Below are positions 31,716 to 62,383 of a DNA stretch of 64,000 nucleotides, piece by piece. A program made the translations under genes and the position numbers. Source of the stretch: Xenococcus sp. MO_188.B8 (GTDB lineage: Bacteria; Cyanobacteriota; Cyanobacteriia; Cyanobacteriales; Xenococcaceae); NCBI GenBank assembly GCA_030065615.1, contig JASJDR010000016.1, positions 1 through 64,000 of the forward strand, written 5' to 3'. Each line of letters begins with the position of its first letter. Positions within the stretch are counted from its first letter, which is position 1. The notes under the pieces were generated by a model, which searched no databases, was not told the DNA's origin, and saw only the letters and a program-made list of their open reading frames with translations.

Positions 31716-32318
31716 TTGATGGATAAAATCTTGGACGCAAAGGAATTTTTTCAACTCAGTGCTGGACAATGGCGATCGCAAAGAACAACTCATCATCTTC
31801 CCTTTAGAAGAGCCGAAAGTGGCAACTCCGACATTAACGTAGAATTCTTAGAAGCAGAAGAATCCCAAATTAGAGAAATTTGCGCCATGCACGATATGGA
31901 TCACAATCTGGCGATCGGTGGTGCATTTGTCACCTGGGACGGTTCAATGGCCTGGGACAAAGAGAATGAAGATCATCAAGGTAGCACCGTCTTTGCGCTA
32001 ATTCCCGAAGACAATAATCTCAGAAAAGGCAAATTACTAAGAGAAAGAGGTTATGCCGAAATTGTTCCCGTAGCTGGACAATATGAGATGGACGAAGAAG
32101 ACGGTTTAATTTTAATTACAGAATATGAGACTATGAGCATTATTGAACGTTTTTGGTTTATCAATCCCAATTTACGTCTACGCAGTAGTACAGTGAAAAG
32201 ATTTGGTGGTTTTAATACAGCTACCTTCTGTGCTGAATCTCGTGTGGTAAACAATATTGCTAGCACTATGGCATCAGAAGCAGCCCTACAAAATAACTAC
32301 GCTCTTACGGGGTGGTAA
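31716..32318 (+). CDS. CpcS/CpeS-family phycobiliprotein lyase
   Basis: The 200-residue protein matches the S-type lyases that attach phycocyanobilin to Cys84-type sites of phycobiliproteins. Blocks include EFFQLSAGQWRSQRTTHHLPFRRAESG, GGAFVTWDGSMAWDKENE, KLLRERGYAEIVPVAGQY and LILITEYETMSIIERFWFINPNLRLRSSTVKRFGGFNTATFCAESR. S-type lyases are lipocalin-like beta barrels. In some strains two paralogues (CpcS and CpcU) act as a pair. I cannot tell which this is without a comparison, so the symbol is left blank. A cpcG linker gene follows 160 bp downstream on the same strand. Confidence 0.88.
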   Translation: MMDKILDAKEFFQLSAGQWRSQRTTHHLPFRRAESGNSDINVEFLEAEESQIREICAMHDMDHNLAIGGAFVTWDGSMAWDKENEDHQGSTVFALIPEDNNLRKGKLLRERGYAEIVPVAGQYEMDEEDGLILITEYETMSIIERFWFINPNLRLRSSTVKRFGGFNTATFCAESRVVNNIASTMASEAALQNNYALTGW

Positions 32319-32478
32319 AGCTATTGGTTACAAATCTTAAAAAAAGTCAGCCCCAAGTAATGCTTTCAAAGCTAAAAATCTGTAATATTTTGTAACTATC
32401 CTTAATTTAAAGTACCTCTCTAACGTATTATTGGGATTAATAATTTTAATATTTCGCAAGATTTAGGGAGGTCTTGAC

Positions 32479-33234
32479 TTGTCTATTCCTCTTCTAGGCT
32501 ACGCACCAAAGACAATTAACGCTCGTATTAATGGATATGAGGTTGGAGGTGACGATCAGCCTAAGATTTACTCAGCAGAAAATCTACCTTCCCCTGGAGA
32601 CATGGGAAATCTGATAGAAGCTGCCTACCGTCAAATTTTCTTCCATGTTTTTAAATCAGATCGTGAGCCATTTTTAGAGTCTCAACTTCGTAATGGTCAA
32701 ATCACCGTGAGAGACTTTATTCGAGGCTTATTGCTTTCAGATACTTATAAACGTACTTTTTACGGCTTCAACAGTAATTACCGTTTTGTTGAGCAATGTG
32801 TACAAAGAGTATTAGGAAGAGATGTTTACGGTGAGGACGAAAAGATAGCTTGGTCTATTGTTGTAGGTTCTAAAGGTTTAGAAGCCTTTATTGATGATCT
32901 TCTCGATAGTGATGAATACCTCGATAATTTTGGTTTTGATACTGTTCCCTATCAGCGCCGTCGAGTATTGCCTGGTCGCGATCGCGGAGAAATTCCCTTT
33001 AATATCCAGTCTCCTCGTTACGATGCTTACTATCGTAAGGTTTTCGGTTTTCCTTCTGGTACATGGACTGGCTCAGTTCGTCGTTTTGTTCCTCAAGAGC
33101 AAAAACCCAAAGTGGGAGATCCCGCACTCTATATGGATATGGTACGCAGTTTAAAAAGAAGAGCCATTACTGGGTCTCCAACGGCTGCTAGTAATATCGA
33201 TATGAGCAAAGTTCCTTATCGCAGAACCGCGTAG
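32479..33234 (+). CDS. cpcG: Phycobilisome rod-core linker (CpcG)
   Basis: CpcG joins a phycocyanin rod to the allophycocyanin core. The 251-residue protein starts SIPLLGYAP, as typical CpcG proteins do, and holds a phycobilisome linker-polypeptide domain (about residues 20-190): [84 protein letters not shown]. The start is TTG 32479, preceded by AGGGAGG (32465-32471) with 7-nt spacing, which fixes it. The C-terminal tail ([19 protein letters not shown]) is typical of core-binding CpcG1-type linkers, not the membrane-anchored CpcG2/CpcL type, as no C-terminal transmembrane segment is seen. Confidence 0.92.
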
Positions 33235-35228: not shown

Positions 35229-35359
35229 TATCTAGATATGATCTAAATTACATCTCAGGAGCGCCTAACCCGTTTCTTCACAAAATCTTCAAAATATTTT
35301 CTTATCTTATAGTTAGAGCCTCAAAGCATAAAAAAAATCTACAAGAATGGAGGTTGAGT

Positions 35360-35827
35360 ATGACACTTAGTAAATGGCAACCATTCCAAGAGTTAAGCAA
35401 TATTAGAAAACAAATGGATAGCCTGTTTGAAGATATGCTTTCCGTTGGAGATCGTGATTGGATGGGACTACATGGTATAGGAGGAATGTGGACTCCTGCA
35501 GTAGAACTCAAAGAAACTGACAATGAACTAGTTCTAAAAGCCGAAATTCCTGGAATTGATATCAATGATTTGGAAGTAGAAGTTAGTGAAGATCGGGTAA
35601 ATATTTCGGGAGAACATAAAGAAGAAGAAAGTACCGAAGATCAAGAAAAAAACTATTTCCGCTCTGAATTTCACTATGGCAAGTTTGAAAGGATCGTTCC
35701 TTTGCCCATGCATATTAAAACTGACGAAATCAAGTCTGAGTTTAAGCATGGAATTTTAACTCTTACTATGCCCAAAGTAAAAGACACACCCAAAAAATCT
35801 GTCAAAGTTCATCTGGAAGATCGTTAG
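35360..35827 (+). CDS. Small heat-shock protein (Hsp20/alpha-crystallin)
   Basis: The 155-residue chaperone holds an alpha-crystallin domain (about 45-145): MWTPAVELKETDNELVLKAEIPGIDINDLEVEVSEDRVNISGEHKEE, then YFRSEFHYGKFERIVPLPMHI, then ILTLTMPKVKD and a C-terminal anchor region. The start is ATG 35360, set by GGAGG at 35349-35353 (6-nt spacing); an in-frame TTG at 35354 is too close to that site. It lies directly upstream of the variant psbA, 97 bp apart, with a strong hairpin between them. In cyanobacteria Hsp20 protects thylakoid and phycobilisome proteins under heat and light stress. Confidence 0.92.
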   Translation: MTLSKWQPFQELSNIRKQMDSLFEDMLSVGDRDWMGLHGIGGMWTPAVELKETDNELVLKAEIPGIDINDLEVEVSEDRVNISGEHKEEESTEDQEKNYFRSEFHYGKFERIVPLPMHIKTDEIKSEFKHGILTLTMPKVKDTPKKSVKVHLEDR

Positions 35828-35887: not shown

Positions 35888-35917
35888 CCGTATTCGAGCT
35901 AGATTAATACGGAGGAT
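35888..35917 (+). promoter_or_regulatory. Hairpin overlapping the psbA ribosome binding site
   Basis: CCGTATT (35888-35894) is complementary to AATACGG (35906-35912) across an 11-nt loop. The right arm ends on the first two bases of GGAGG (35911-35915), the likely Shine-Dalgarno site for ATG 35925. When folded, the helix would partly block ribosome binding, which suggests translational control of this psbA. The stem is 7 bp and untested. Confidence 0.55.
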
Positions 35918-35924
35918 ATAATTT

Positions 35925-37007
35925 ATGAATACTTTTGTGCGACAACGTTCTCAAGCAGATGTTTTAGGCGTTTGGGAGCGATTTTGTCGTTGGATTACCA
36001 GCACCAATAATCGCATTTATATTGGTTGGTTTGGCGTGTTAATGATTCCCACACTTTTAGCGGCGACTATTTGTTTTATTCTGGCTTTTATCGCTGCACC
36101 CGCTGTCGATATCGATGGAATCCGCGAACCGGTTATCGGTTCCTTGTTGGGTGGTAACAATATGATCACTGCTGCCGTGGTACCTACTTCTGCTGCTATT
36201 GGGTTGCACTTTTACCCAATCTGGGAAGCTAGTTCCCTAGATGAATGGCTTTACAATGGTGGTTGTTATCAATTGATTGTGTTCCACTTTCTCATCGGTA
36301 TTTGGTGCTACTTAGGAAGACAATGGGAACTAAGTTATCGTGAAGGTTTACGACCGTGGATTGCTGTCGCTTTTTCGGCACCCGTGGCAGCAGCGACGGC
36401 AGTCTTGCTAATTTATCCCCTCGGTCAAGGAAGTTTTTCTGAGGGATTGCCTTTGGGAATTGCGGGCACTTTTCACTTTATGCTGGCATTCCAAGCCCAT
36501 CACAATATCTTAATGAATCCCTTCCATATGCTGGGAGTAGCTGGGGTATTTGGTGGTGCGTTATTAGCTGCTTTACATGGTTCTTTGGTGACTTCAACTT
36601 TAATTCGTCAGACTTCTGAAGCTGAATCTGCCGACAAAGGTTATAAATTTGGTCAGCAAGAGGTCACCTATAACTATATGGCGGGACATTATGGATTCCT
36701 GGGTCGGTTACTTATTCCATGGTTTGCTAGCAGCAACCATCGAGCTTTTCATTTTCTGTTGGTAGCTTTACCGACTATTGGTATCTGGTGTGCCGCAGCA
36801 GGAGTTAGCATGATGGCATTTAATCTCAATGGTTTTAATTTCAACCAATCGATTTTAGATAGCCAAGGTCGTGTAATTTATAGCGATGCCGATCTGCTTA
36901 ATCGAGCTAATTTGGGTATTCAAGCCATGCACTCGCCTAATGCACATCATTTTCCTTTGACGTTAGCTGGTGGCGAATCCATTACTGTCAGTTTGGCTAG
37001 TGGTTAG
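35925..37007 (+). CDS. psbA: Rogue-type photosystem II D1 protein with altered Mn-cluster ligands
   Basis: The 360-residue D1 homologue is aligned here to standard D1 numbering (this protein is +3 up to a one-residue insertion near 252, then +4). Kept residues: Tyr161 (here 164), His190 (193), His198 (201), His118 (121), iron ligands His215 (218) and His272 (276), Asp61 (64), His332 (336), His337 (341) and Ala344 (348). Changed residues: Asp170 to Glu, Asn181 to His, Glu189 to His, His195 to Asn, Ser264 to Ala, Phe265 to Ser, Glu333 to Ser and Asp342 to Thr. Four of the six direct D1 Mn/Ca ligands are lost or changed, so normal oxygen evolution is unlikely. It lacks the QD dipeptide that I recall in chlorophyll f synthase, so the rogue (sentinel) class fits better than ChlF. 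The 12-residue C-terminal tail is retained. It is probably used in special conditions such as dark or microoxic growth. Confidence 0.9.
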
Positions 37008-37114: not shown

Positions 37115-37618
37115 ATGACTATAGAATTTCCCACCCGTTTTCAAGGTCGTCTGACAACTGCGCTGCTGATTCTTCGACTATCTTTAGGGGTATTTCTTTT
37201 ACTTTGGGCATTAGAAAAATTCATCCTTCCCCAAACAACTGCAGAGATTTGGGCTAGCTTTTATAAGATACCGATATCTGGCGCGATCATAACCATTCTC
37301 GCGATTTTGCAAACTTTACTAGCGATCGCTTTTATCATTGGATGGTTGCGCCATATCACCTATGGTATTGCTTTGGGCATCAATGCAGTAACTTTTATTT
37401 CTACCTGGCAACAATTATTAGACCCTTGGGGTTTGGCTGGTGGCGAATCTGTTAATCATCTATTTTTAGCTGGTATACCTGTATTAGCGGGATTTATCGC
37501 TCTGTACATACTCCATCCTTGGGATATGTGGTCGCTAGACGATTGGCTAAAACATAAACATACTCTTGGCCATTCTCACGAGTTACAAGAACCTATGGAT
37601 GTGATGCACCACGAATAG
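37115..37618 (+). CDS. DoxX/MauE-like membrane protein
   Basis: The 167-residue protein has four predicted membrane segments (about 18-36, 55-77, 83-100 and 115-135) in the DoxX layout. These include ILRLSLGVFLLLWALEKFI, IITILAILQTLLAIAFIIGW and GIPVLAGFIALYILHPWDMW. The C-terminal tail is rich in His (KHKHTLGHSHELQEPMDVMHH), possibly a metal-binding tail. DoxX proteins are quinol-oxidase-associated or thiol/redox membrane proteins in other bacteria. The function here is unknown. It lies 108 bp after the variant psbA, and the adenosine-specific-kinase-type gene follows after 23 bp, so the last two are likely co-transcribed. Confidence 0.75.
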   Translation: MTIEFPTRFQGRLTTALLILRLSLGVFLLLWALEKFILPQTTAEIWASFYKIPISGAIITILAILQTLLAIAFIIGWLRHITYGIALGINAVTFISTWQQLLDPWGLAGGESVNHLFLAGIPVLAGFIALYILHPWDMWSLDDWLKHKHTLGHSHELQEPMDVMHHE

Positions 37619-37641: not shown

Positions 37642-38124
37642 GTGGAAATCAAATCGGTACCAATAGATATTCCTGATGGAGCAAATCTAATTCTTGGTCA
37701 AACCCATTTTATTAAAACTGTAGAAGATCTCTATGAGATTATGGTAGGAATCTCATCTGGGGTGAAGTTTGGAATTGCTTTCTGTGAAGCTTCTGGGGAA
37801 TGCTTAATTCGTAGAGCGGGAAACGATGCAACTCTTCAAGAACGAGCAATTGCTAATGCTCAAGCCCTGGGCGCGGGACATAGTTTTATTATTTTGCTCC
37901 AACAAGCCTATCCGATTAACTTTCTCAATGCCATCAAACAATGCCCCGAAGTCTGTAATATCTATTGCGCAACAGCAAATCCGGTAGAAGTAATCATTGT
38001 CGAAACTGAACAGGGACGAGGTATTCTGGGCGTTGTTGATGGAGCTTCCCCTAAAGGAGTAGAAACGGCAGAAAATATTAAAGCACGTCAAAACCTACTG
38101 CGTCAGATTGGTTACAAGTTGTAG
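37642..38124 (+). CDS. Adenosine-specific kinase family protein
   Basis: The 160-residue protein is a full-length member of the adenosine-specific kinase family (PF04008), first described in archaea. Landmarks are ANLILGQTHFIKTVEDLYEIMVGIS, FGIAFCEASGECLIRRAGND, GAGHSFIILLQQAYPINFLNAIKQCPEVCNIYCATANPVEVIIVET and RGILGVVDGASPKGVE. The start is GTG 37642 with GAGGAG 6-9 nt upstream, and it is 23 bp after the DoxX gene, so it is probably in the same transcript. The cellular role in cyanobacteria is unclear. Its position next to a rogue psbA is noted under findings. Confidence 0.85.
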   Translation: MEIKSVPIDIPDGANLILGQTHFIKTVEDLYEIMVGISSGVKFGIAFCEASGECLIRRAGNDATLQERAIANAQALGAGHSFIILLQQAYPINFLNAIKQCPEVCNIYCATANPVEVIIVETEQGRGILGVVDGASPKGVETAENIKARQNLLRQIGYKL

Positions 38125-46625: not shown

Positions 46626-47294
46626 GTGTCTGTTGGCATAATGGGAACCAAACTAGGCATGACCCAAATCTTTAACCAAGAGACGGGAAAAGCTATTCCC
46701 GTGACTGTGGTTCAAGCTGGTCCTTGTACTATCACCCAAATCAAAACCCAAGAAACTGACGGCTATTGCTCAGTTCAGATTGGCTATCAAGAAGTCAAAG
46801 AAAAAGCTCTATCTAAACCAGAGTTAGGGCATTTAAAAAAAGCTTCGGCTGCTCCGCTGCGTCATCTCAAAGAATATCGTACCGATGATGTGAGTAGCTG
46901 GGAATTAGGACAAGCATTAGGCGCTGACTTATTCAACGCAGGGGAAATCGTTGATATCAGTGGCAAAACTATTGGTCGAGGTTTTGCCGGATACCAAAAA
47001 CGTCATAACTTCAGAAGAGGACAAATGGCTCACGGTTCCAAAAACCATCGCGCGCCTGGTTCTACTGGTGCTGGTACTACTCCTGGTCGTGTTTATCCAG
47101 GGAAAAAGATGGCAGGACGCTATGGCGGGACACAGGTTACGATTCGCAAACTAGAAGTTGTTCAAGTAGATGCTGAGCGTAACTTACTCTTGATTAAAGG
47201 AGCAGTACCTGGAAAACCAGGAGCTTTATTGAGTATTACTCCCGCTAATATTGTCGGAGCCAAAAATAAGCTGTTAGCAACCCATAACAAGTGA
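46626..47294 (+). CDS. rplC: 50S ribosomal protein L3
   Basis: L3 is a primary 23S rRNA-binding protein near the peptidyl-transferase centre. The 222-residue protein has the N-terminal [13 protein letters not shown] and the conserved [24 protein letters not shown] loop. Translation starts at GTG 46626. It opens the cluster: rpsJ, fus and tuf are not upstream, as in other cyanobacteria, where the S10 region begins with L3. The stop TGA overlaps the GTG of rplD (GTGA), so the two genes are translationally coupled. Confidence 0.97.
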
Positions 47295-47929
47295 CCATGG
47301 TTAATTGTGTAGTTAAAAATTGGCAAGGGGAACAAGTCGACCAGACAACCCTGGAGCTGAAAGTAGCAAAAGAAGAAAATGCTAATCATATTGTCCACCG
47401 AGCATTAGTTAGACAAATGGCTAAAGCTCGCCAAGGCACGGCTTCAACTAAAACCAGATCGGAAGTTCGTGGTGGTGGACGCAAACCTTGGAGACAAAAA
47501 GGAACTGGACGAGCTCGCGCCGGTTCAATTCGTTCTCCTCTCTGGCGTGGTGGTGGTGTCATCTTTGGCCCTAAACCCAGAGACTACGATCTCAAAATGA
47601 ACAAAAAAGAGCGGCGTTTGGCATTAAGAACTGCTTTTGCCAGTTGCTTAGAAAATGCGGTAGTAGTAGAAAACTTTGCCGAAGAGCTGGCTCGTCCTAA
47701 AACAAAGGAGGTTATTGCGGCTCTCGAACGTTGGGAAGTAGACGCAAAGCAAAAAATTCTGCTGATAGTTACAGATATTACTGAAAATGTTGATCTGTCC
47801 ACGCGCAACATTCCTAACGTGAAACTACTCAAGGCAAGTAACTTAAATGTCTATGATTTGCTCAATGCCCAGCAGGTTGTAGTGACTACAGATGCTTTGA
47901 CCAAAATACAGGAGGTTTATGGTGACTGA
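47291..47929 (+). CDS. rplD: 50S ribosomal protein L4
   Basis: L4 lines the peptide exit tunnel. In E. coli it also represses its own operon; that is not established here. The 212-residue protein has [20 protein letters not shown] (the tunnel loop), followed by [18 protein letters not shown]. The track-level start is GTG 47291, overlapping the L3 stop; an ATG at 47297 gives MVNCVVKNW, and either fits. The end overlaps the L23 start by 11 bp. Confidence 0.97.
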
Positions 47930-48230
47930 ATATAATCCCAGAGATCTCGCAGATCTGATCCTGAAGCCAATTGTTACCGAAAAAGCTACGTTGCAAATGG
48001 AAGAAAACAAATATGTTTTCGACGTCCTACCTAAGGCAACCAAGCCAGAAATTAAAGCAGCTATTGAGAGTTTATTTGATGTGACCGTCACTAGGGTGAA
48101 CACTCTCAAATTACCTCGCAAACAAAGGCGCGTAGGTAGATTTATTGGCTACAAGCCCCAATACAAAAGGGCAATTGTAACCCTGCAAGAAGGAGATAGC
48201 ATCTACTCAGAGCTGTTCCCTGATGTGTAA
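47919..48230 (+). CDS. rplW: 50S ribosomal protein L23
   Basis: L23 sits at the exit of the peptide tunnel and docks trigger factor and SRP. The 103-residue protein has [41 protein letters not shown] and the basic loop [24 protein letters not shown]. The start is ATG 47919, inside the end of rplD, with an upstream AGGAGG (47910-47915) as ribosome binding site. It is followed by a 113-bp spacer with GTCGC/GCGAC hairpin before rplB. Confidence 0.96.
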
Positions 48231-48343
48231 ATTAGGTTTTAGGTTAAATTTCCCACAACCTAGCACCCAACATCTTCGTCGCATAGCGACATTAACCCGA
48301 AAACTAACGAGCTAGAAGCAGTATAATTACAACTTATTAAATT

Positions 48344-49171
48344 ATGGGTACTCGTTCTTTTAGACCATTAACTCCGGGAACTCGGCAAGCAACCATTGCC
48401 GACTTTTCAGAAATTACCAAAAGTAAACCCGAAAAGTCCTTAACAAAGTTCAAGCATCGAGCTAAAGGGCGCAATAACCGAGGGGTGATTACTAGTCGCC
48501 GTCGTGGTGGCGGTCATAAACGCCGCTATCGGAATATTGATTTTAGAAGAGACAAAATAAATATTCCAGCTACAGTAATCGCGATCGAATATGATCCCAA
48601 TCGCAACGCCAGAATTGCTTTAGTCGAATATCAAGACGGAGAAAAACGTTATATCCTCGCTGCTGCGGGATTGACTGTGGGTACGGAAATCATTTCTGGC
48701 CCCGATTCTCCCATTGAAATCGGCAATGCTTTACCTTTGAGTAAAATTCCTTTGGGAGAAACCATCCACAACGTAGAACTTAGAGTCGGCCGAGGTGGGC
48801 AGATAGTTCGCGCTGCGGGGACTGCCGCCAAGTTAATGGCCAAAGAAGGTAACTATGTAACTATTGGCTTACCTTCTAAAGAAGTTCGGATGATTCGCAA
48901 AGAATGCTACGCCACCATTGGGCAAGTAGGTAATGCTGAAGTAAGGAACCTCAAACTTGGAAAAGCAGGTAAAAGTCGTCATTTAGGTAGAAGACCTCAA
49001 GTAAGAGGAAGTGCCATGAACCCCTGTGATCACCCCCACGGTGGTGGTGAAGGAAGAGCACCTATTGGGAGAAGTGGCCCTGTAACTCCCTGGGGGAAAC
49101 CAGCTTTGGGTCTGAAGACTCGCAAGAAAAGAAAAGCTAGTGACAAACTTATAGTTCGTCGTCGTCGTTAA
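48344..49171 (+). CDS. rplB: 50S ribosomal protein L2
   Basis: L2 is essential for 50S-30S association and peptidyl-transferase assembly. The 275-residue protein begins [18 protein letters not shown] and has [24 protein letters not shown]. The signature [29 protein letters not shown] includes the conserved functional His. The RRRR C-terminus is typical. A 112-bp spacer separates it from rplW, unusual for the cluster. Confidence 0.97.
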
Positions 49172-49220
49172 GCGACTGATAAATGCTTTGTTGGTGAAAG
49201 CCCTGCGCCTTTGCCTTTAT

Positions 49221-49250
49221 TGATAACTGATAACTGATAACTGATAACTG
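49221..49250 (+). repeat. TGATAAC heptamer repeat between rplB and rpsS
   Basis: Four tandem TGATAAC units (49221-49248) lie immediately upstream of the rpsS start at 49256, in the place where a ribosome binding site is expected; none is visible. They extend the spacer within an otherwise tight operon. Similar AGTTATCAG/ATTGATAACTG remnants occur near 12290-12310. Confidence 0.8.
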
Positions 49251-49255
49251 ACACC

Positions 49256-49534
49256 ATGAGTCGTTCCTTAAAAAAAGGTCCTTTTATTGCTGATAAACTG
49301 CTCAAGAAAATTGAGAAGTTAAACGCAGATAATAAAAAGGAAGTCATTAAAACTTGGTCTCGTGCTTCTACTATCCTGCCCCAAATGGTTGGTCATACAA
49401 TAGCTGTTCATAATGGTCGCCAACATATTCCTGTATTTATTTCCGATCAAATGGTTGGTCATAAATTAGGTGAATTTGCGCCAACCAGAACCTTTAGAAG
49501 TCACTCCAAAAGTGATAAGAAAGCTCGGCGCTAG
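49256..49534 (+). CDS. rpsS: 30S ribosomal protein S19
   Basis: S19 lies in the head of the 30S subunit near S13. The 92-residue protein has [48 protein letters not shown] and [27 protein letters not shown], all normal. It is preceded by the heptamer repeat rather than a clear Shine-Dalgarno site, so it may rely on coupling or weak initiation. Confidence 0.97.
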
Positions 49535-49561
49535 CAATATTTACAGCTCATAATAAGCATC

Positions 49562-49921
49562 ATGATAGTAGATAAGACCAATGAAATAAAAGCGATCTCC
49601 AAATATATCCGCATGTCTCCTTTTAAAGTGAGACGGGTTTTGGATCAAATTCGAGGTCGTCAATATCGAGAAGCTCTAATCATTCTCGAATTTATGCCTT
49701 ACAAAGCCTGTGAACCAGTACTAAAAGTATTGCGCTCTGCTGTGGCTAATGCAGAACATAACGCTGGATTAGATCCTGCAAGCTTGGTTGTTAGTCAAGC
49801 TTTTGCCGATGGCGGTCCTGTTTTAAAGCGTTATCGCCCTAGAGCACAGGGTCGAGCTTATCAAATTCGTAAGCCTACCTGTCACATAACTGTAGCAGTT
49901 GCTCCAGAAATAGATGAATAA
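49562..49921 (+). CDS. rplV: 50S ribosomal protein L22
   Basis: L22 forms part of the exit-tunnel constriction with L4. The 119-residue protein has the N-terminal [20 protein letters not shown], the helix [33 protein letters not shown] and the tunnel hairpin [23 protein letters not shown] 49562 is used. It is followed by rpsC after 24 bp. Confidence 0.96.
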
Positions 49922-49945
49922 GCTGTTGTATTCAGAGGAAATATA

Positions 49946-50665
49946 GTGGGTCAAAAAATACATCCAACTGGTTTTCGTTTAGGTATCACTCAAGAACATC
50001 AGTCTTGTTGGTACGCTGATACCAAGCATTACCCCCAACTGCTACAAGAAGATCGCGTGATTCGAGATTATATAGCTAAGGGTCTCAGTAATGCGGGGAT
50101 CTCCCAAGTCAAAATTGAGCGCAAAGCTGATCAAATCGATTTGGCAATTCATACTGCTCGTCCCGGCGTAGTCGTCGGTCGTGGTGGGGCAGGAATTGAA
50201 AAGTTACGTACTGAATTACAAGATACAGTAGGTAACAATCGCCAAATTAGGATTAATGTTATCGAAGTTGCTCGAGTTGATGCCGATGCTACTTTGATTG
50301 CCGAATATATCACTCAACAACTAGAACGCCGAGTTTCTTTCCGCAGAGTGGTTCGCCAAGCAATTCAAAGAGCGCAAAGAGCAGAAGTTCAAGGGATTAA
50401 AATTCAAGTCAGCGGTCGGCTTAATGGGGCGGAAATTGCCCGGACAGAATGGGTACGCGAAGGTCGAGTTCCGCTACATACTTTAAGAGCCAATATCGAT
50501 TACTCTTATCGTACTGCTTTAACCATTTATGGGATACTGGGGGTCAAGGTTTGGATCTTTAAAGGAGAAATCATTCCTGGACAAGAAGAAGCCGCTGTCG
50601 CAACTCCGACGAAAACACCCCGCCGCAATCGTCGTCGTCAAAAATTTGATGACCGTTCGGAATAA
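49946..50665 (+). CDS. rpsC: 30S ribosomal protein S3
   Basis: S3 guards the mRNA entry tunnel and contributes helicase activity. The 239-residue protein starts GTG 49946 ([25 protein letters not shown]) and has the KH domain [20 protein letters not shown], then [31 protein letters not shown]. The C-terminal tail is basic and short ([17 protein letters not shown]). The GTG start and the absence of an upstream Shine-Dalgarno site suggest coupled translation. Confidence 0.97.
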
Positions 50666-50692
50666 TAAACAGCAATTAGCTAATAAGTAACT

Positions 50693-51112
50693 ATGCTAAG
50701 TCCTAGAAGAACGAAATTTCGTAAACAACAACGAGGTCGAATGAGAGGTTTGGCCCATAGAGGTAGTACGCTTAACTTTGGTGACTATGCTCTGCAAGCA
50801 ACTGAGCCTTCTTGGATTACCTCCCGTCAAATTGAAGCCGCTAGACGAGCTATGACTCGTTACGTCAAAAGGGGGGGGAAAATCTGGATTCGAATTTTTC
50901 CTGATAAACCAGTAACTATGAGAGCTGCGGAAACACGGATGGGTTCTGGTAAAGGTTCTCCTGAATATTGGGTAGCAGTAGTCAAACCTGGAAGAATTAT
51001 GTTTGAAATGGCAGGGGTAGCAGAACCGGTCGCTAGAGAAGCGATGCGCTTAGCTGCTCAGAAATTGCCAATTAAAACTAAATTTATTACTCGCGATGAG
51101 GAGTATACATAA
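50693..51112 (+). CDS. rplP: 50S ribosomal protein L16
   Basis: L16 positions the A-site tRNA. The 139-residue protein starts [19 protein letters not shown] and has [36 protein letters not shown], with the conserved RMGSGKG loop. Its end overlaps the region of rpmC's start by sequence proximity: rpmC ATG at 51117 lies 4 nt after the L16 stop. Confidence 0.97.
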
Positions 51113-51116
51113 GATT

Positions 51117-51368
51117 ATGGCTTTACCTAAAATTGCCGAGGTCAGAAATCTGAGCGACGAAGAACTGGCAGCAGAAGTGTTAGCCGTTAAGCGAGAACTA
51201 TTTCAACTGAGACTAGAACAAGCTACTGGTCGCCTAGAAAAACCTCATATGTTTAAGCATACTAAACACCGTCTCGCTCAACTGTTAACTGTAGAACGGG
51301 AACGTCAGTTACAAACCACTGAGTTAACAACTGTTGACCCCCAAACGCCATCTCCAGAAGAAGAGTAA
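51117..51368 (+). CDS. rpmC: 50S ribosomal protein L29
   Basis: The 83-residue protein is a two-helix L29 with VRNLSDEELAAEVLAVKRELFQLRLEQATGRLEKPHMFKHTKHRLAQLLTVERER. I chose ATG 51117 (MALPKIAEV); an earlier in-frame ATG at 51096 lies inside rplP and is unlikely. An acidic C-terminal tail (PQTPSPEEE) extends beyond the usual L29 length. It works at the tunnel exit near L23. Confidence 0.95.
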   Translation: MALPKIAEVRNLSDEELAAEVLAVKRELFQLRLEQATGRLEKPHMFKHTKHRLAQLLTVERERQLQTTELTTVDPQTPSPEEE

Positions 51369-51377
51369 AGATTAACT

Positions 51378-51626
51378 ATGGCAGTCAAAGAAATAGTCGG
51401 CGAAGTCGTCAGCGACAAAATGAATAAAACCGTTGTGGTTGCTGTAGAAAATCGGACTCGCCATCCTAAATACAAAAAAATCGTGGTCCGCACCAAAAAG
51501 TACAAAGCCCATGATGAGGAAAACCAGTGCCATATCGGCGATCGCGTAAGAATTCGCGAAACGAGACCTCTCAGTCGTACTAAATGTTGGACTGTGGCAG
51601 AAATCATTGACAAGAAAAATTCTTAA
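51378..51626 (+). CDS. rpsQ: 30S ribosomal protein S17
   Basis: S17 binds 16S rRNA early in 30S assembly. The 82-residue OB-fold protein has [73 protein letters not shown]1 octamer is embedded in its coding region (GGCGATCGC near 51537). It starts 9 nt after rpmC. Confidence 0.96.
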
Positions 51627-51651
51627 CTTTTATTAGATCAATCTTACCGCC

Positions 51652-52020
51652 GTGATACAACAACAGACTTATCTCAATGTTGCCGATAACAGCGGGGCTC
51701 GTAAACTAATGTGCTTGCGAGTGCTAGGTAAAGGTAACTGTCCCTATGGTCACATTGGTGATGTGATTGTCGCTGTAGTCAAAGATGCCCTCCCTAACAT
51801 GGCAGTTAAAAAATCTGACGTTGTTAGAGCTGTAATTGTCCGTACTAAACAACCAGTCAACCGTGAAAGCGGCATGAGTATCCGTTTTGACGATAATGCT
51901 GCTGTAATTATCAATCCTGATAATAATCCTCGGGGGACTCGGGTTTTTGGCCCAGTAGCACGGGAGTTGCGAGATAAAAACTTTACTAAAATCGTTTCTC
52001 TAGCTCCGGAGGTAATCTAA
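51652..52020 (+). CDS. rplN: 50S ribosomal protein L14
   Basis: The 122-residue protein starts at GTG 51652 ([26 protein letters not shown]) and has [52 protein letters not shown], all as in the family. L14 is at the 30S interface and is where ribosome silencing factor RsfS binds. The stop TAA shares one base with the rplX ATG. Confidence 0.96.
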
Positions 52021-52364
52021 TGGCCAAGAAAACCACTACCAAACGCTACAAAATGCATGTCAAGAAAGGAGATACCGTTCAGGTGATTTCCGGTCGCGAT
52101 AAAGGCAAAGTAGGAGAAATCCTCCAAGCCTTACCCAAGTCAAGCAAAGTAGTTGTTAAAGGCGTTAACATCCGCACTAAGCATGTTAAGCCTCAGCAAG
52201 AAGGAGAATCAGGTCAAATCACTACCTTTGAAGCTCCGATTCATAGTTCTAATGTGATGCTCTACTCCGAAAAAGAGAAAGTCGCCAGCCGCGTCTGTTA
52301 TACCTTTACCGATGACGGCAAAAAAGTGCGCATGCTCAAAAAAACGGGAGAGATCATTGAGTAA
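52020..52364 (+). CDS. rplX: 50S ribosomal protein L24
   Basis: L24 is an assembly initiator of the 50S subunit. The 114-residue protein has the KOW motif [69 protein letters not shown]. The start ATG overlaps the L14 stop by one base (TAATG), so translation is coupled. Confidence 0.96.
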
Positions 52365-52423
52365 TTACCAAAAATCAATTTAGTAATTTCCTGACCAAGC
52401 CCAGGAAAGATCAAAAAAAGCTC

Positions 52424-52969
52424 ATGGCAAAAAATCTCAAGGAAACTTATACAACCGAAATCGCTGCCAAGCTCAAGGAAGAGTTTGGTTATAGCAATAT
52501 TCATCAGGTACCAAAAGTCGTTAAGGTAATTGTTAATCGTGGTCTCGGGGAAGCATCCCAAAATGCTAAGGCATTAGAATCATCGATTCGCGAGGTAGCA
52601 ACTATTACCGGGCAGAAACCAGTAGTTACCAGAGCGAAAAAGGCGATCGCGGGTTTTAAAATCCGGCAAGGGATGCCCGTCGGCGTGATGGTTACGCTGC
52701 GTGGCGATCGCATGTACGCTTTCCTGGAACGCTTAATTAATCTGGCGCTACCAAGGATTCGTGATTTTCGCGGTATTAGTCCCAAAAGCTTTGACGGACG
52801 AGGCAACTATAGTCTAGGAGTCAAAGAACAACTAATCTTTCCTGAAATTGATTACGATACCATCGATCAAATTCGGGGTTTCGATATTTCCATCGTCACC
52901 ACCGCCAATACCGATGAGGAAGGACGCGCCTTACTCAAAGAAATGGGGATGCCCTTCCGTACAAACTAA
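52424..52969 (+). CDS. rplE: 50S ribosomal protein L5
   Basis: L5 binds 5S rRNA and contacts the P-site tRNA. The 181-residue protein has [61 protein letters not shown] and [33 protein letters not shown]. It is followed directly by rpsH; rpsN is absent at this place, as in other cyanobacteria. Confidence 0.97.
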
Positions 52970-53003
52970 TAACTATAGGATCGGGAGATAATAAAAGGTA
53001 ATA

Positions 53004-53405
53004 ATGGCAGCAAACGATACCATCTCAGATATGCTGACTCGCATTCGCAATGCCTGTCTGGTTAAGCATCAAAAAACTCAAGTACCTTCGACCAAAATGA
53101 CCCGAAGTATTGCTAAAGTACTTCAAGAAGAAGGTTTTATTAATAGCTATGAAGAAACAGGGGAAGGTGTTCACAAGTACCTCAGCATATCCCTTAAATA
53201 TCAAGGAAAAGGCCGCCAACCAGTAATTGGAACTCTCAAGCGAGTAAGCAAACCAGGATTGCGCGTCTATTCCAAACGTAAAGATATTCCTCGTGTCTTG
53301 GGAGGGATTGGGATTGCAATTGTTTCAACCTCTCATGGAGTAATGACAGATCGGGAAGCTCGTCGTCAAGGAGTTGGCGGAGAAATTCTCTGTTATGTCT
53401 GGTAA
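53004..53405 (+). CDS. rpsH: 30S ribosomal protein S8
   Basis: S8 binds helix 21 of 16S rRNA, and in E. coli it represses the spc operon. The 133-residue protein has [42 protein letters not shown] and the C-terminal [52 protein letters not shown]. It follows rplE directly, without an intervening S14. Confidence 0.97.
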
Positions 53406-53423
53406 TTTAAGGAGTAAATATTT

Positions 53424-53960
53424 ATGTCACGTATTGGTAAACGTCCGATACCAATTCCTTCTGGTGTCACCGTAAATATTAAAGGTTCTCATGTCGCAGT
53501 GAAAGGCCCCAAAGGCAATTTGGAGCGCGAGTTAGTTGAGCTAATTTCGGTAGAACAAGAGGGTAATGAAATTAAAGTATCACCCAAAAATGACTCTCGT
53601 ACTGCCCGCCAACTTCATGGCCTATCCCGCACTTTGGTTGCCAATATGGTTGAAGGTGTTTCCAAGGGGTTTGAAAAACGCTTACAGATTATTGGAGTGG
53701 GTTATCGGGCTCAGGCTCAGGGGCAAAAACTAACTCTTAATGTAGGTTATAGTAAGCCAGTAGAAATGTTAATGCCCTCAGGGATTCAAGTTACCGTAGA
53801 GAAAAATACCGATGTCATAGTAACAGGTATTGATAAAGAGGTCGTGGGTAATATATCTGCCAAAATAAGAGCTGTCAGACCCCCTGAACCTTACAAAGGA
53901 AAAGGAATTCGCTATCAAGATGAGGTAGTGAGACGTAAAGCAGGTAAAACAGGTAAATAA
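53424..53960 (+). CDS. rplF: 50S ribosomal protein L6
   Basis: L6 is near the factor-binding site of the 50S subunit. The 178-residue protein begins [15 protein letters not shown] and has [60 protein letters not shown] and the end [27 protein letters not shown], all normal for the two-domain protein. Five bases separate it from rplR. Confidence 0.97.
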
Positions 53961-53965
53961 TAACG

Positions 53966-54328
53966 ATGAAGTTATCCCGCAAACAATCAGTGGCTCGTCG
54001 CCATCGACGAATCCGCAAAAAAGTAAATGGCACCCCCGAGCGTCCTCGGTTGTCCGTTTTCCGCTCCCACAAACATATTTATGCTCAGGTTATTGACGAT
54101 GTAGCTCAAAATACCTTAGCCGCAGCATCTACCCTAGATTCCGAGGTCAAATCAGATCTTAAATCTACTAGCACCTGTGAAGCTTCCTCTGCTGTGGGAA
54201 AATTAGTCGCCCAAAGAGCTTTAGCTAAAGGTGTGACTAAAGTAGTTTTTGATCGTGGTGGTAATCTCTACCATGGTAGAATTAAATACCTAGCAGAAGC
54301 TGCCCGCGAAGCTGGTTTAGACTTTTAA
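53966..54328 (+). CDS. rplR: 50S ribosomal protein L18
   Basis: L18 binds 5S rRNA. The 120-residue protein has [56 protein letters not shown] and [28 protein letters not shown]. The basic N-terminus is typical. It sits 5 nt after rplF, likely coupled. Confidence 0.96.
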
Positions 54329-54355
54329 TCAATTCCTAATCTAACTATATAAATC

Positions 54356-54883
54356 ATGGCAAAATCAAAATCGCGCAAAAAAAGTCGCAGTAAAGAAAAG
54401 GAATCTAATTGGCAGGAAAGAGTAGTGCAAATCCGCCGAGTCAGCAAAGTAGTCAAAGGTGGGAAAAAACTTAGTTTCCGCGCCATTGTCGTTGTTGGTA
54501 ATGAAAAAGGGCAAGTCGGTGTTGGCGTTGGCAAAGCGGCGGATGTCATCGGTGCCGTCCGTAAAGGAGTTGCCGATGCCAAGAAAGAATTGGTTGAGGT
54601 TTCTTTAACCAAATCTAACTCCATCAATCATGTTACCAATGGGATTGCTGGGGGAGCTAAAGTCTTCATGCGTCCTGCTGCTCCAGGTACGGGGGTAATT
54701 GCTGGGGGAGCTGTCCGTACAGTTTTAGAGCTTGCCGGGGTAAAAAACATTTTAGCTAAACAGTTGGGCTCCAATAATCCCCTGAACAATGCTAGAGCAG
54801 CGGTTAATGCCCTCAGTAGTTTGAGAACTTTTTCCCAAGTAGCCCAGGAAAGAGGGATCTCTCTCGAACAATTATACGCTTAA
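54356..54883 (+). CDS. rpsE: 30S ribosomal protein S5
   Basis: S5 helps keep decoding accurate. The 175-residue protein has the N-terminal basic stretch [49 protein letters not shown], and the second domain [48 protein letters not shown]. No rpmD (L30) follows, as usual in cyanobacteria; rplO comes next after 24 bp. Confidence 0.97.
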
Positions 54884-54907
54884 TTTACTATATAGAGGCT
54901 AGAATTT

Positions 54908-55357
54908 ATGAACTTAAATGATATTGCTCCTCAGAAGGGTTCTAAAAGACGCAGACGGCGAGTTGGTCGGGGAATTGCCGCTGGTCAAGGAGCCAGCTGT
55001 GGTTTTGGCATGCGGGGTCAAAAATCTCGTTCTGGTACAGGCACTAAACCTGGTTTTGAAGGCGGTCAAATGCCTTTATACCGTCGAGTTCCCAAGCTTA
55101 AGCATTTTCCCCTAGTGAATCAAAAAACTTACACCATTGTTAATGTTGGTGCTTTAAGCTCTTTAGCGGCTAATACAGAAGTAACCCTCGAATCTTTATT
55201 GGAACAGGGAATTACTACGACCCAGAATGGACCTTTAAAAATATTGGGGGATGGTGAGTTAAATGTCGCTCTTAAGGTTAAAGCTGCTGCCTTTACGAAA
55301 AATGCTCAGGCAAAAATCGAAGCTGCCGGTGGAAGTTGCGAAGTGATCGGCAAATAA
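54908..55357 (+). CDS. rplO: 50S ribosomal protein L15
   Basis: L15 is a late-assembly protein of the 50S subunit. The 149-residue protein has [69 protein letters not shown], with the basic N-terminal extension that reaches into rRNA. The following 122-bp spacer before secY has no clear gene. Confidence 0.97.
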
Positions 55358-55479
55358 GCAAGATACCGTAATTGGTTTATCATAAGTTACATGGTGAGGC
55401 GAGGTAAATTTACATTACTTAACTTATTAAACACCTTATAGCTTAATTAAAAATGTATAAAAAACACAGGTAGCCTTGT

Positions 55480-56802
55480 ATGGTTAGAGATAAAACCCCA
55501 ACAGCACAAGAAACTTTTTTACAAATGGCACAGGCAGCTGGTCTGCGAGGTCGTGTGCTGGTAACAATTGGTCTTTTAGTATTAGTCCGTTTAGGGATCT
55601 TTATTCCCGTACCGGGTATTGATCGGGTACGTTTTGCTGAAGCGGTCCAAAATCTTCCCGTTTTAGGTTTTTTAGATATCTTTACTGGAGGTGGTTTATC
55701 TGCCCTCGGTATTTTTGCTTTAGGTATTTTACCTTTTATTAATGCTTCTATTATTATGCAGCTCTTGACGGCTGCCATTCCTGCTTTAGAAGATTTACAA
55801 AAAAACGAAGGAGAAGCAGGACGCCGCAAGATTTCTCAGTATACCCGATATGTAGCTTTAGTCTGGGCAATTTTACAAAGTTCAGGGCTAACTATTGGTT
55901 TATTGCGACCTTACGCCTTAGATCCTGGATTTTGGTTTATTGCCGAAACAGTTTTAGCCTTAACCGCAGGCTCGATGTTTGTCATGTGGGTATCGGAGTT
56001 AATCACTGAGCGAGGCATTGGTAATGGGGCTTCTCTATTGATTTTTATCAATATTGTTGCTACTTTACCGAAAAATTTGGGCAATACCATTGAGTTTGCC
56101 CAGCAAGGTGGGAGAGAAGCTGTAGCTCAAGTTGTTATCTTGCTATTGGTCTTTTTGGTCACAATTGTCGGTATTGTTTTTGTTCAAGAAGGAACCAGAA
56201 GAATCCCGATTATTTCAGCGCGTCGTCAAGTTGGGAAGCGACTTTACCGAGAAAGAACTAGCTATTTACCTTTACGACTTAATCAAGGCGGTGTAATGCC
56301 GATTATTTTTGCCACAGCAGTAATTAGTTTGCCCACTTCTCTAGCTCAGTTTGCTGGCGGGGATAGTGGTTTTGGTCAGATTTTAGTCCAATTTGCCAAT
56401 GCGGTAACTCCTTTGCGGGGCGAAATTAACTGGATTGCGATCGCGTTTCAATCGCTATTGATTCTGTTCTTTAGTTATTTCTACGCTTCCTTAATCATGA
56501 ATCCCGTGGATATGTCCCAAAACTTGAAAAAGATGGGCACTTCGATCCCAGGAATTCGTCCTGGCAAGGCGACAAGTGGTTATTTAGAACAGGTGATGAA
56601 CCGTTTAACTTTTCTGGGAGCAATTTTCTTAGCTGTGGTGGTGGCGATTCCCAGTTTAATTGAAGCAGCTACGAGAGTGCAAACTTTTAACGGATTCGGC
56701 GCAACTTCACTATTGATTTTAGTTGGGGTGGCAATTGATACTGCTAAGCAAATTCAAACCTATGTCATATCTCAACGTTATGAAGGGATGGTGAAAAAAT
56801 AA
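55480..56802 (+). CDS. secY: Preprotein translocase subunit SecY
   Basis: SecY is the channel of the Sec translocon, serving plasma and thylakoid membranes. The 440-residue protein has ten membrane helices. Landmarks are GLRGRVLVTIGLLVLVRLGIFIPVPGID, NEGEAGRRKISQYTRY, the plug-lateral gate region and the cytoplasmic loop VGKRLYRERTSYLPLRLNQGGVMPIIFA. The C-terminal KIAGKATSGYLEQVMNRLTFLGAIFL-like region is also typical. It is placed between rplO and adk, as in other cyanobacteria. Confidence 0.97.
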   Translation: MVRDKTPTAQETFLQMAQAAGLRGRVLVTIGLLVLVRLGIFIPVPGIDRVRFAEAVQNLPVLGFLDIFTGGGLSALGIFALGILPFINASIIMQLLTAAIPALEDLQKNEGEAGRRKISQYTRYVALVWAILQSSGLTIGLLRPYALDPGFWFIAETVLALTAGSMFVMWVSELITERGIGNGASLLIFINIVATLPKNLGNTIEFAQQGGREAVAQVVILLLVFLVTIVGIVFVQEGTRRIPIISARRQVGKRLYRERTSYLPLRLNQGGVMPIIFATAVISLPTSLAQFAGGDSGFGQILVQFANAVTPLRGEINWIAIAFQSLLILFFSYFYASLIMNPVDMSQNLKKMGTSIPGIRPGKATSGYLEQVMNRLTFLGAIFLAVVVAIPSLIEAATRVQTFNGFGATSLLILVGVAIDTAKQIQTYVISQRYEGMVKK

Positions 56803-56870
56803 AACAAAATTAGCAGGAATTTAGCTCAATCAATTTCTACTAAAGCTATGGTTAAAACCACAATAAAACA

Positions 56871-57428
56871 GTGAAAAGATTAATTTTTTTAGGACCTCCT
56901 GGGGCGGGAAAAGGGACACAAGCCCTAATTCTGTCAGATCTTTATCAAATACCTCATATTTCTACTGGAGATATCCTCAGAGCCGCAGTTAAAGCAGAAA
57001 CCACCTTAGGAATTAAAGCTCGCAATTATATGGACGCCGGAGAATTGGTTCCTGATGATTTGATTCTCGATTTGATCAAAGAACGTTTAAGTCAAACAGA
57101 TACTCAAAAAGGTTGGATTCTGGACGGGTTTCCCCGTAATGTTAGCCAAGCTGCTTTCTTAGAAAAATTACTACAAGAATTGCAACTAGCTGCCGATTAT
57201 GTACTGAATCTAGAAGTTCCTGACGAGATCTTAGTCGAAAGATTGCTAGCTCGCAATAGAAAAGATGATAACGAAATTACAATCCGTCGCCGTCTGGAAG
57301 TATATCACCAAGATACTGTACCAGTAATAAGTTTTTATAGCGATCGCGGCAGGTTAAAAGCAGTCAATGGTAATAATTCTCTAGAAGGTGTTACTACTGC
57401 TTTAAAAGCTATTATCGATCAAACCTAA
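56871..57428 (+). CDS. adk: Adenylate kinase
   Basis: Adk interconverts ATP plus AMP with two ADP. The 185-residue protein starts GTG 56871 and has the P-loop FLGPPGAGKGTQA and the AMP-binding segment ISTGDILRAAVKAETTLGIKARNYMDAGELVPDDLILDLI, then GWILDGFPRNVSQA. It lacks the long zinc/LID insert of the 215-residue form; RKDDNEITIRRRLEVYHQDTVPVISFY follows directly, so it is the short-LID type common in cyanobacteria. It follows secY after 68 bp. Confidence 0.97.
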   Translation: MKRLIFLGPPGAGKGTQALILSDLYQIPHISTGDILRAAVKAETTLGIKARNYMDAGELVPDDLILDLIKERLSQTDTQKGWILDGFPRNVSQAAFLEKLLQELQLAADYVLNLEVPDEILVERLLARNRKDDNEITIRRRLEVYHQDTVPVISFYSDRGRLKAVNGNNSLEGVTTALKAIIDQT

Positions 57429-57459
57429 AGTTTGTAAGTAATATCGGAGGATATTTTAA

Positions 57460-57684
57460 TTGTCGAAACAAGACCTTATAGAAATGGAAGGGACGGTGAC
57501 GGAATCACTGCCAAACGCGATGTTCCGGGTCGATTTAGATAATGGGTTTAATGTTTTAGCCCATATTTCTGGCAAAATACGCCGTAACTATATCAAAATC
57601 TTACCAGGCGATCGCGTTAAGGTGGAACTAACTCCCTATGACTTGACCAAAGGGAGAATTACCTACCGTCTCAAAAATAGATAA
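57460..57684 (+). CDS. infA: Translation initiation factor IF-1
   Basis: IF-1 blocks the A site during initiation. The 74-residue OB-fold protein has [62 protein letters not shown]. It begins with TTG 57460, supported by CGGAGG (57445-57450) at 9-nt spacing; TTG is unusual for this gene. rpmJ follows after about 104 bp, with a strong promoter in between. Confidence 0.96.
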
Positions 57685-57730
57685 CCAAAAGACAAAATTT
57701 TCAAGATATCTCCTGTACATCAGGCAATTC

Positions 57731-57759
57731 TTGACATAATGTCTTAAGATAAGTATAAT
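57731..57759 (+). promoter_or_regulatory. Near-consensus sigma70 promoter ahead of rpmJ
   Basis: TTGACA (57731-57736) and TATAAT (57754-57759) are separated by 17 bp: full consensus hexamers at ideal spacing. Transcription would start near 57766 and serve rpmJ, rpsM, rpsK, rpoA and rplQ. It lies inside the ribosomal-protein cluster and has no terminator immediately upstream. Confidence 0.8.
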
Positions 57760-57788
57760 TATAAGCTTGCAGTGTTGCCCAAAAAGGG

Positions 57789-57902
57789 ATGAAAGTTAGA
57801 CCATCAGTAAAAAAAATGTGCGAAAAATGCCGTGTCATCCGTCGACGCGGTCGCGTTATGGTAATTTGTAACAACCCAAAACATAAACAGCGTCAGGGTT
57901 AG
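57789..57902 (+). CDS. rpmJ: 50S ribosomal protein L36
   Basis: The 37-residue protein reads [20 protein letters not shown], then [17 protein letters not shown]. The C-x2-C, C and H pattern (Cys11, Cys14, Cys27, His32) marks the zinc-binding form of L36. It is too short for most gene callers but clearly real. It lies between infA and rpsM, about 24 nt after the expected start of the consensus promoter transcript. Confidence 0.95.
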
Positions 57903-57965
57903 AATCAAATTTATCATAATATCCAGAATATTTTGTAAACCAAAGAACAATAGGAGAGTCAAAAC

Positions 57966-58349
57966 GTGGCACGGATTTCCGGCGTCGACCTTCCCCGTGA
58001 TAAGCGCGTAGAAATCGGGCTTACTTATGTCTTCGGGATTGGTCTTTCTCGCGCCCAAGATATCTTAAAAGCAACAGGAGTTAACCCTGATACTAGGGTT
58101 CGCGACTTGTCTGACGAAGATGTCGCAAAATTAAGAGCTTATGTAGAGGATAACTATCAAGTTGAAGGTGACCTGAGAAGATGGGAAGCCATGAACATCA
58201 AACGGTTAGCCGACATAGGCACCTATCGCGGTCGTCGTCATCGTCTAGGGTTACCAGTAAGAGGGCAAAGAACCCGGACTAATGGCCGTACTCGTCGAGG
58301 CAGAAAGCTTACTGTTGCTGGTAAGAAAAAACCACCAGGGAAGAAGTAA
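57966..58349 (+). CDS. rpsM: 30S ribosomal protein S13
   Basis: S13 contacts the P-site tRNA and forms a bridge with L5. The 127-residue protein starts GTG 57966 ([34 protein letters not shown]) and has [46 protein letters not shown]. An upstream GGAGAG is 9-13 nt before the GTG. Confidence 0.97.
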
Positions 58350-58390
58350 ATCGTAAATTATTTAGTTCAATTGATATTAGTTAAATTAAA

Positions 58391-58783
58391 ATGGCGCAAC
58401 CAAAGAGAAGAACTGGGCCCAGAAAACAAAAAAAGAATATTCCTAACGGTATAGCTCATATCCAATCTACCTTCAATAATACCATTGTTACCATTTCTGA
58501 TAGTCGAGGAGACGTGATATCTTGGTCTTCTGCAGGGGCAAGTGGGTTTAAAGGGGCTAAGAAAGGGACACCTTTTGCGGCTCAAACCGCTGCTGATAGT
58601 GCAGCCAGAAAAGCAATTGACCAAGGAATGCGCCAGCTAGAAGTCATGGTCAGTGGGCCTGGTGCTGGTCGGGAAACTGCCATCAGAGCCTTGCAGGCAG
58701 CAGGATTAGAGATTACTTTAATTCGTGATGTGACACCGATTCCTCATAATGGATGCCGTCCCCCCAAGAGACGTAGGGTATAA
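58391..58783 (+). CDS. rpsK: 30S ribosomal protein S11
   Basis: S11 is on the platform near the anti-Shine-Dalgarno region. The 130-residue protein has [67 protein letters not shown] and the signature [12 protein letters not shown]. It follows rpsM after 41 bp and precedes rpoA by 104 bp. Confidence 0.97.
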
Positions 58784-58887
58784 AGGATATAACTTTAATG
58801 GCAATAGTTAAGATTAAGCAAAAAAAAGTGGTTTTCGCTGCCGAAAGTTACTGGAAAATTGCTTTTTTAAAGAACGGAGGTTAATCT

Positions 58888-59877
58888 GTGGCGCAATTTC
58901 AAATTGAGTGTGTAGATTCGAAAACGCAAAAGAATCAGCACCAGTATAGCAAATTTGTTCTGGAACCTCTAGAGAGAGGTCAGGGTACTACTTTAGGCAA
59001 TGCTCTGCGAAGAGTTTTGTTATCCAATCTCGAAGGTACAGCTGTGACTGCGATTCGTATTGGGGGCGGGATGGCAAAGGATAGTAACAAGCAAGAACAT
59101 AAATTTGGTTTTGCTACTCATGAATTTGCCACGATTGAGGGAGTTAGGGAAGATGTTTTAGAGATTATTCTCAATATGAAAGAGATTGTGCTCAAAAGCT
59201 ACACCACGCAACCTCAAATCGGTCGGTTAACAGCCACCGGTCCAGGAACAGTCACAGCTCATCAATTCTCTTTGCCTTCAGAGGTCGAATCAGTTGACCC
59301 AAATCAATATGTGGCCACCTTAGCAGACGGAGCTTCTTTAGAAATGGAGTTTCGGATCGAAAAAGGTAAAGGTTATCGGACAGTGGAACGGGGGAGAGAG
59401 GAAGGCAGTTCACTTGATTTTTTACAAGTTGATGCCGTATTTATGCCTGTGACAAAGGTCAACTATAGTGTTGAAGATGCCAGAATAGACGGTTTCAACG
59501 TTAGGGAAAGGTTGATTTTAGAGATTTGGACTAATGGCAGTATTAAGCCAGAAGAAGCTTTATCTCAAGCAGCAAGTATAGTAGTAGAGCTCTTTAACCC
59601 CCTCAAGGATCTCACCTTAGAAGAAATTCAAGAAGATTATCAAGAAGATGAAGATCCCACCAGCCAAATTCCTATCGAGGAACTACAGCTTTCAGTACGG
59701 GCATATAACTGTCTAAAACGGGCTCAAATTAACTCGGTTGCTGACCTATTGGACTATACCCAAGAAGATCTTTTGGAAATTAAAAATTTTGGTCAAAAAT
59801 CAGCTTACGAGGTGATCGACGCCTTACAGCAACGTTTGGGGATAACTTTACCCCAAGAAAAATCAGGTAAAAGTTAG
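58888..59877 (+). CDS. rpoA: RNA polymerase alpha subunit
   Basis: The 329-residue protein starts GTG 58888, set by GGAGG at 58876-58880. The N-terminal domain has [36 protein letters not shown] and the C-terminal domain (about 255-329) has [46 protein letters not shown], which binds UP elements and activators. rpsD is absent just upstream, as in other cyanobacteria. Confidence 0.97.
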
Positions 59878-59896
59878 GGCAAATAAATCAAGAATC

Positions 59897-60247: not shown

Positions 60248-60262
60248 CCTAGATGTGAATGG

Positions 60263-61099: not shown

Positions 61100-61155
61100 T
61101 CATTAGTTCAAAAAATTGTTATAGCAGAAAATCTAAATTACCAACTTCTAAGAAC

Positions 61156-62024: not shown

Positions 62025-62065
62025 TTTTTTAATAAAATATATTTTAGGCAATCAAGGAAAAAATC

Positions 62066-62305: not shown

Positions 62306-62383
62306 CTTTTCAATTAAATTTATCGACCCAGTAGTCAGTGTGATGGCTACTGGGTTCTTTGTATATTTACAGGTAATTGAATA

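Follow-up and report, generated by a model that had tools for sequence, protein, structure and literature searches.

What kind of D1 protein is encoded by a psbA gene in which four ligands of the manganese cluster of photosystem II (PSII) are altered, and what might such a protein do in the cell? This question is raised by a gene of the cyanobacterium Xenococcus sp. MO_188.B8, found in the 64,000-nucleotide stretch analysed here (positions 1 to 64,000 of contig JASJDR010000016.1, called the window below). The protein almost certainly belongs to Group 2, the rogue or sentinel D1s, and adds to a type already described in passages of PMC4773611, PMC4582080, PMC6492235 and PMC11304991. Comparison of sequences suggests that it is probably a functional D1 serving as an oxygen-silent placeholder in PSII.

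The gene and its altered residues

The open reading frame (ORF) runs uninterrupted from ATG to stop and encodes 360 amino acids (Table 1). Its product matches the Pfam family Photo_RC (E-value = 6.9e-87) and scores 602.9 bits against the NCBIfam psbA equivalog, narrowly above the cut-off of 596.05. The host genome (8.26 Mb in 354 contigs; listed completeness 100%, contamination 4.61%) carries nifD and eight matches to Photo_RC (PF00124), namely the rogue gene, five full-length and one partial standard D1 genes, and one D2 gene. The window D1 is 70-72% identical to the five full-length standard D1s.

Table 1. Positions of the rogue psbA gene, its altered segments and its neighbours in the window
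Feature	Coordinates	Strand	Evidence
Rogue (Group 2) psbA, D1 protein of 360 aa	35925..37007	+	ORF, NCBIfam, Pfam, alignment, trees
Donor-side codons, residues 170-195 (D170E, N181H, E189H, H190 kept, H195N)	36441..36518	+	
Remodelled QB loop codons, from His252 to 265 with the inserted Tyr (F255L, Q261P, S264A, F265S); end worked out by hand	36687..36731	+	
C-terminal tail codons from H332, and stop (E333S, R334P, D342T; LTLA for LDLA, short extension)	36930..37007	+	
HSP20 small heat-shock protein gene, directly upstream of psbA	35354..35827	+	Pfam
Gene for a 167 aa protein, by eye a DoxX-like membrane protein, between psbA and the PF04008 gene	37115..37618	+	
PF04008 adenosine-specific kinase family gene, second gene downstream, same strand	37642..38124	+	Pfam

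Alignment to the host's standard D1s gave the changes D170E, E189H, E333S and D342T, as the first-pass annotation of this DNA had read them by hand; three carboxylate ligands of the manganese cluster are thus replaced by non-carboxylates, and the fourth by Glu. D61, Y161, H190, H198, H215, H272, N298, H332, H337 and A344 are kept, among them every residue that had been listed as retained (Tyr161, His190, His198, His215, His272, His332 and Ala344). Further changes are N181H, H195N, E329Q, R334P, F255L, Q261P, S264A, F265S and L271F, and there are two insertions, one Tyr after H252 and three residues near the N-terminus. Positions 127-128 are Leu-Gly, not QD, and the C-terminus reads LTLA instead of LDLA, the motif that is lacking in rogue D1 according to passages of PMC9640542. 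The protein should therefore fold and retain the ligands of P680, Tyr-Z and the iron, and a normal manganese cluster is not expected of it, in agreement with the annotation. The accompanying description of an intact photochemical core holds for these ligands; it does not hold for the niche of the secondary quinone (QB), which is rebuilt and carries the insertion after H252.

Position among the D1 proteins

A search of 388 genomes of the class, drawn from a larger group, yielded 28 loci in other genomes that encode a D1 apart from the standard ones and sharing the altered sites. Among 27 genomes of the host's family that were searched, orthologues 84-92% identical were found in seven, together with a second, shorter rogue type. 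In a tree of 80 rows, the window D1 and 57 other rogue D1s, including that of Crocosphaera watsonii WH 8501, formed one clade (96/96), and the standard, D1'-type and far-red D1s (20 rows) formed another (95/94); the bootstrap of this tree had not settled, and chlorophyll f synthase (ChlF) joined the D2 outgroup through long branches. The split was recovered (Shimodaira-Hasegawa-like approximate likelihood ratio test, SH-aLRT, 100) in a second tree of 64 rogue and 20 other D1s from which the insertion and thirteen columns of ligand and QB sites had been removed and D2 and ChlF left out. The 64 rows are the 58 minus three repeats of newly read genes plus nine, and this tree came from a quick search without bootstrap. 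The rogue rows are part of the loci found, since copies of genes in hand (L070-L072, L079, L086, L095, L101 and L134), Nostoc-type genes (L077, L081, L088 and L094) and cut genes (L082, L083 and L090) were omitted, and the standard D1s are represented by 12 of many. Residue counts below refer to the 58 rogue rows of the first tree or the 64 of the second, excluding L291 and the four genes read last.

In both trees the window D1 lies outside the standard D1s, so that a standard D1 can be rejected and the earlier assignment to the rogue class is borne out. The window D1 shares its protein family and the ligands of P680, Tyr-Z and the iron with standard Group 4 D1, whereas the full set of manganese ligands of that group is not found in it, four of them and the QB loop being different. 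Low-oxygen D1' (Group 3) is, similarly, a conditional alternative D1; however, the three reference rows that we take to be of the D1' type, from residues G80A, F158L and T286A, keep all the ligands and group with standard D1, and the window D1 does neither.

The closest likeness is to the Group 2 rogue D1s, known as PsbA4 in Cyanothece and Crocosphaera: both lack manganese ligands and the LDLA terminus, have an altered QB site, fall in a separate clade and occur in nif-bearing hosts, and the window D1 groups with the copy of C. watsonii WH 8501. Modification of the QB site is a Group 2 trait, reported by Murray according to passages of PMC4582080, and either E170 or D170 occurs in the group according to those of PMC4773611. 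The differences are in details; residue 189 is His in the window and Asp in WH 8501, Asn195 is common to only six others of the 58 rogue rows, and the neighbouring HSP20 and PF04008 genes set the window apart. A well-resolved group of rogue D1s is thereby added in the Xenococcaceae/Pleurocapsales family.

A chlorophyll f synthase or another pigment-modifying D1 would share the incomplete manganese ligands, and yet there is hardly any chance that the gene encodes one. The QD motif of ChlF (Q127/D128, per passages of PMC10535343) is missing, as had been noticed earlier, and on this ground ChlF was rejected. In comparison with the one ChlF-type sequence, L124b, the window D1 also has the insertion after position 252, keeps H252 and N298, and stands elsewhere in the tree. 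The eight PF00124 matches of the host genome include no ChlF-type or far-red D1, other far-red cluster genes not having been searched for. The ChlF-type sequence itself comes from Hydrococcus rivularis NIES-593 (L124), where a D1 with QD at 127-128 and a D1 with standard ligands lie within one 8 kb locus.

Origin from a phage was considered and rejected: in a letter search, D170, E189 and the absence of the insertion were found in 80/80 psbA loci on viral contigs, the ones kept of at least 594 confirmed. Decay of a duplicated standard psbA could explain why residues conserved in standard D1 have been lost, and is extremely improbable. The frame is intact, the clade is separate, and the median ratio of nonsynonymous to synonymous differences (pN/pS) is 0.092 over the seven rogue genes of the family, against 0.0785 over nine standard genes (of ten given), with synonymous sites near saturation. 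The rogue psbA is under strong purifying selection, and a pseudogene is rejected on this ratio; since orthologues at 84-92% identity are also present in 7 of the 27 family genomes, chance or decay is unlikely to explain the gene.

Constant and drifting sites

The combination of four changed ligands had been regarded as out of the ordinary. This was overstated, for exactly the same quadruple (D170E/E189H/E333S/D342T) exists in three genomes of the family, the window's and those with L039 and L040, and E189H recurs elsewhere. Position 189 is the freest of the ligand sites (D 31, E 12, Q 6, H 5, A 3, N 3, R 2 and K 2 in the 64 rows), having changed at least 21 times on the second tree. His at this position is found in five rows, the window, L039, L040, L041 and, in another family (f38), L242, with five changes to that state on the quick tree; E189H was therefore rejected as a special signature, and residue 189 cannot by itself carry the rogue interpretation. 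The other ligands are less free. At position 170, 51 of the 64 rows have E, 8 have D and 5 have another residue; residue 333 is A in 41, S in 21 and G in 1, standard Glu being kept in one; Asp342 is kept in none, and H332 in 60. H118, Y161, H190, N298 and H337 are kept in 58/58 rows.

As far as the sequences go, the steadiest novelty of the rogue D1s is the acceptor side, which did not figure in the first-pass annotation. The one-residue insertion after H252 occurs in 64/64 rogue rows and 0/20 other D1s, and S264 is lost in 58 of the 64 (A or G in 57) and kept in six, which makes this the most constant change. N87A, F211L, F255L, Q261P and R334P are fixed in at least 90% of the 58 rows, and the 20 other D1s are at least 95% constant at these sites; residues 255 and 261 presumably lie near the QB niche. 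Attention thus shifts from the lost manganese ligands to the handling of QB as the selected trait. In the passages of the papers cited here, neither the E189H set nor a universal insertion after position 252 is mentioned, and no successful search was aimed at either.

Some rogue D1s depart further from the standard protein. His198, the ligand of a P680 chlorophyll, is kept in the window D1 and is replaced by Ser in six of the 58 rows (L016, L017, L019, L020, L021 and L024, all of family f19, which we take to be Thermostichus-like) and by Gln in one (L023); with this ligand replaced, the photochemical core itself is altered in them. Six others end at Leu343, without Ala344 or an extension (L046, L047, L048 and L235 of the window's family, and L258 and L260), and in the first four residue 170 is Ser, Glu or Ala. 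A type with Lys or Arg189 and Arg332 exists in six genomes of family f37 (L259, L261 and L284-L287), with a second copy in G158 (L288).

Possible role and alternatives

The likely role of the protein is that of an oxygen-silent D1, used together with a standard D2 in darkness, under microoxic conditions or while nitrogen is fixed; pairing with a standard D2 is to be expected because one D2 was found in the genome. Expressed in the dark, at low oxygen or during nitrogen fixation, the rogue D1 would replace standard D1 in an otherwise standard PSII. Such a PSII would still separate charge, would be unable to assemble or hold the Mn4CaO5 cluster and would handle QB and the primary quinone (QA) differently. 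It could remain in the membrane, making no oxygen, until standard D1 took over, and oxygen would then be lower near oxygen-sensitive processes such as nitrogenase. According to passages of PMC9640542, PsbA4 is found in Cyanothece 51142 after 10 h of darkness but not after 2 h of light, and a Synechocystis 6803 strain with PsbA4 as its sole D1 is incapable of photosynthesis. Matches to nifD were found in 28 of the 42 genomes in which a rogue D1 was read and in 103 of the 346 others (odds ratio 4.7, one-sided p 4e-6, kinship ignored).

The counts of nifD were made at an E-value of 1e-60, which gave 131 of the 388 genomes, 118 of them above the curated cut-off; at this threshold a few matches may be fragments or relatives of nifD. 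The rogue census began with 29 genomes (23 with nifD) and grew by three, six and four to 42, the interim tables being 25/35 (profile score plus G247), 25/36 (with G360) and 27/38.

Several points weigh against the placeholder role. Fourteen of the 42 rogue genomes have no nifD match, the association statistics ignore shared ancestry, and the census is incomplete, weaker or fragmentary rogue genes possibly remaining among the other 346 genomes. Moreover, deletion of psbA4 in Cyanothece 51142 had small effects, with slightly faster growth in the absence of fixed nitrogen (passages of PMC9640542), and this weakens a role in the protection of nitrogenase.

In the same deletion strain, again according to passages of PMC9640542, charge recombination in the dark was faster and, when fixed nitrogen was lacking, the PSII signal was slightly higher, as might be expected if the rogue D1 regulated assembly or repair, mainly by filling places meant for D1 and delaying the recovery of active PSII, with its altered acceptor side and not its lost ligands as the means of action. 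The acceptor-side insertion, a change present in every rogue row, is in keeping with this idea, which is nevertheless rather unlikely and overlaps with the favoured placeholder explanation. An active, non-oxygenic photooxidase, in which one manganese (or iron) ion, held by Tyr-Z/His190, a carboxylate at position 170, His332 and His337, is photo-oxidised instead of water, is unlikely. While residues 189, 333 and 342 drift, Y161, H190 and H337 do not in any of the 58 rows, and Glu or Asp at 170 (59/64 rows) and H332 are nearly constant; passages of PMC8047818 contain a speculative scenario in which manganese was oxidised by a D1 that resembled rogue D1 or ChlF or was their ancestor. However, structural needs or those of Tyr-Z might explain why these residues persist, H332 is missing from 4/64 rows, five rows have neither Asp nor Glu at 170, and Arg occupies 332 in the six f37 genomes. 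In its fuller form, a reduced photooxidase with one high-affinity Mn(II)/Fe(II) site and a QB insertion that retunes the acceptor side, the proposal is quite unlikely. Its candidate site would consist of the residues just named, to which the window D1 may add the adjacent His181 and His189.

Neighbouring genes and upstream region

An HSP20 copy, 76-82% identical, stands upstream of the rogue psbA in four of the seven loci of the family. The gene for the 167 aa protein, which had no Pfam or NCBIfam match, recurs in L052 and L053. The PF04008 gene lies closely 3' of the rogue psbA in the window, and the same arrangement was seen in 7 of the 20 other rogue loci whose surroundings were retrieved (L050-L053 and L061-L063), two families being involved; the L053 copy is split into two separated pieces. 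None was seen near 47 standard psbA loci, whose flanks were shorter than the rogue ones. Over the 388 genomes, PF04008 is present in 50; 17 of these are among the 42 genomes with a rogue D1, and 33 are among the 346 others. In a tree of 28 PF04008 rows, a 100/100 branch separates the psbA-linked copies of the window's family from those of family f27, and the pairing needs at least two gains or losses; two origins are the simple reading, and no proof. A literature search for psbA4 with adenosine kinase gave co-mention only in unrelated table rows of one paper. As a lead the pairing, seen in two families, is modest and stands outside the main claim.

Before the start codon and adjoining the likely ribosome-binding site there is an inverted repeat, CCGTATT...AATACGG (35888-35912), which is whole in only four of the seven orthologues; its RNA fold was no better than that of shuffled sequences (z 0.60), and promoter-like matches were at chance level (9 found, mean 9.0). 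Upstream of the rogue psbA, at a distance of about 3 kb, are genes for a CpeS-like lyase and a phycobilisome linker (31716-33234). Genes for ribosomal proteins, SecY, adenylate kinase and RNA polymerase alpha occupy 46626-63496, and the window is thus ordinary chromosome.
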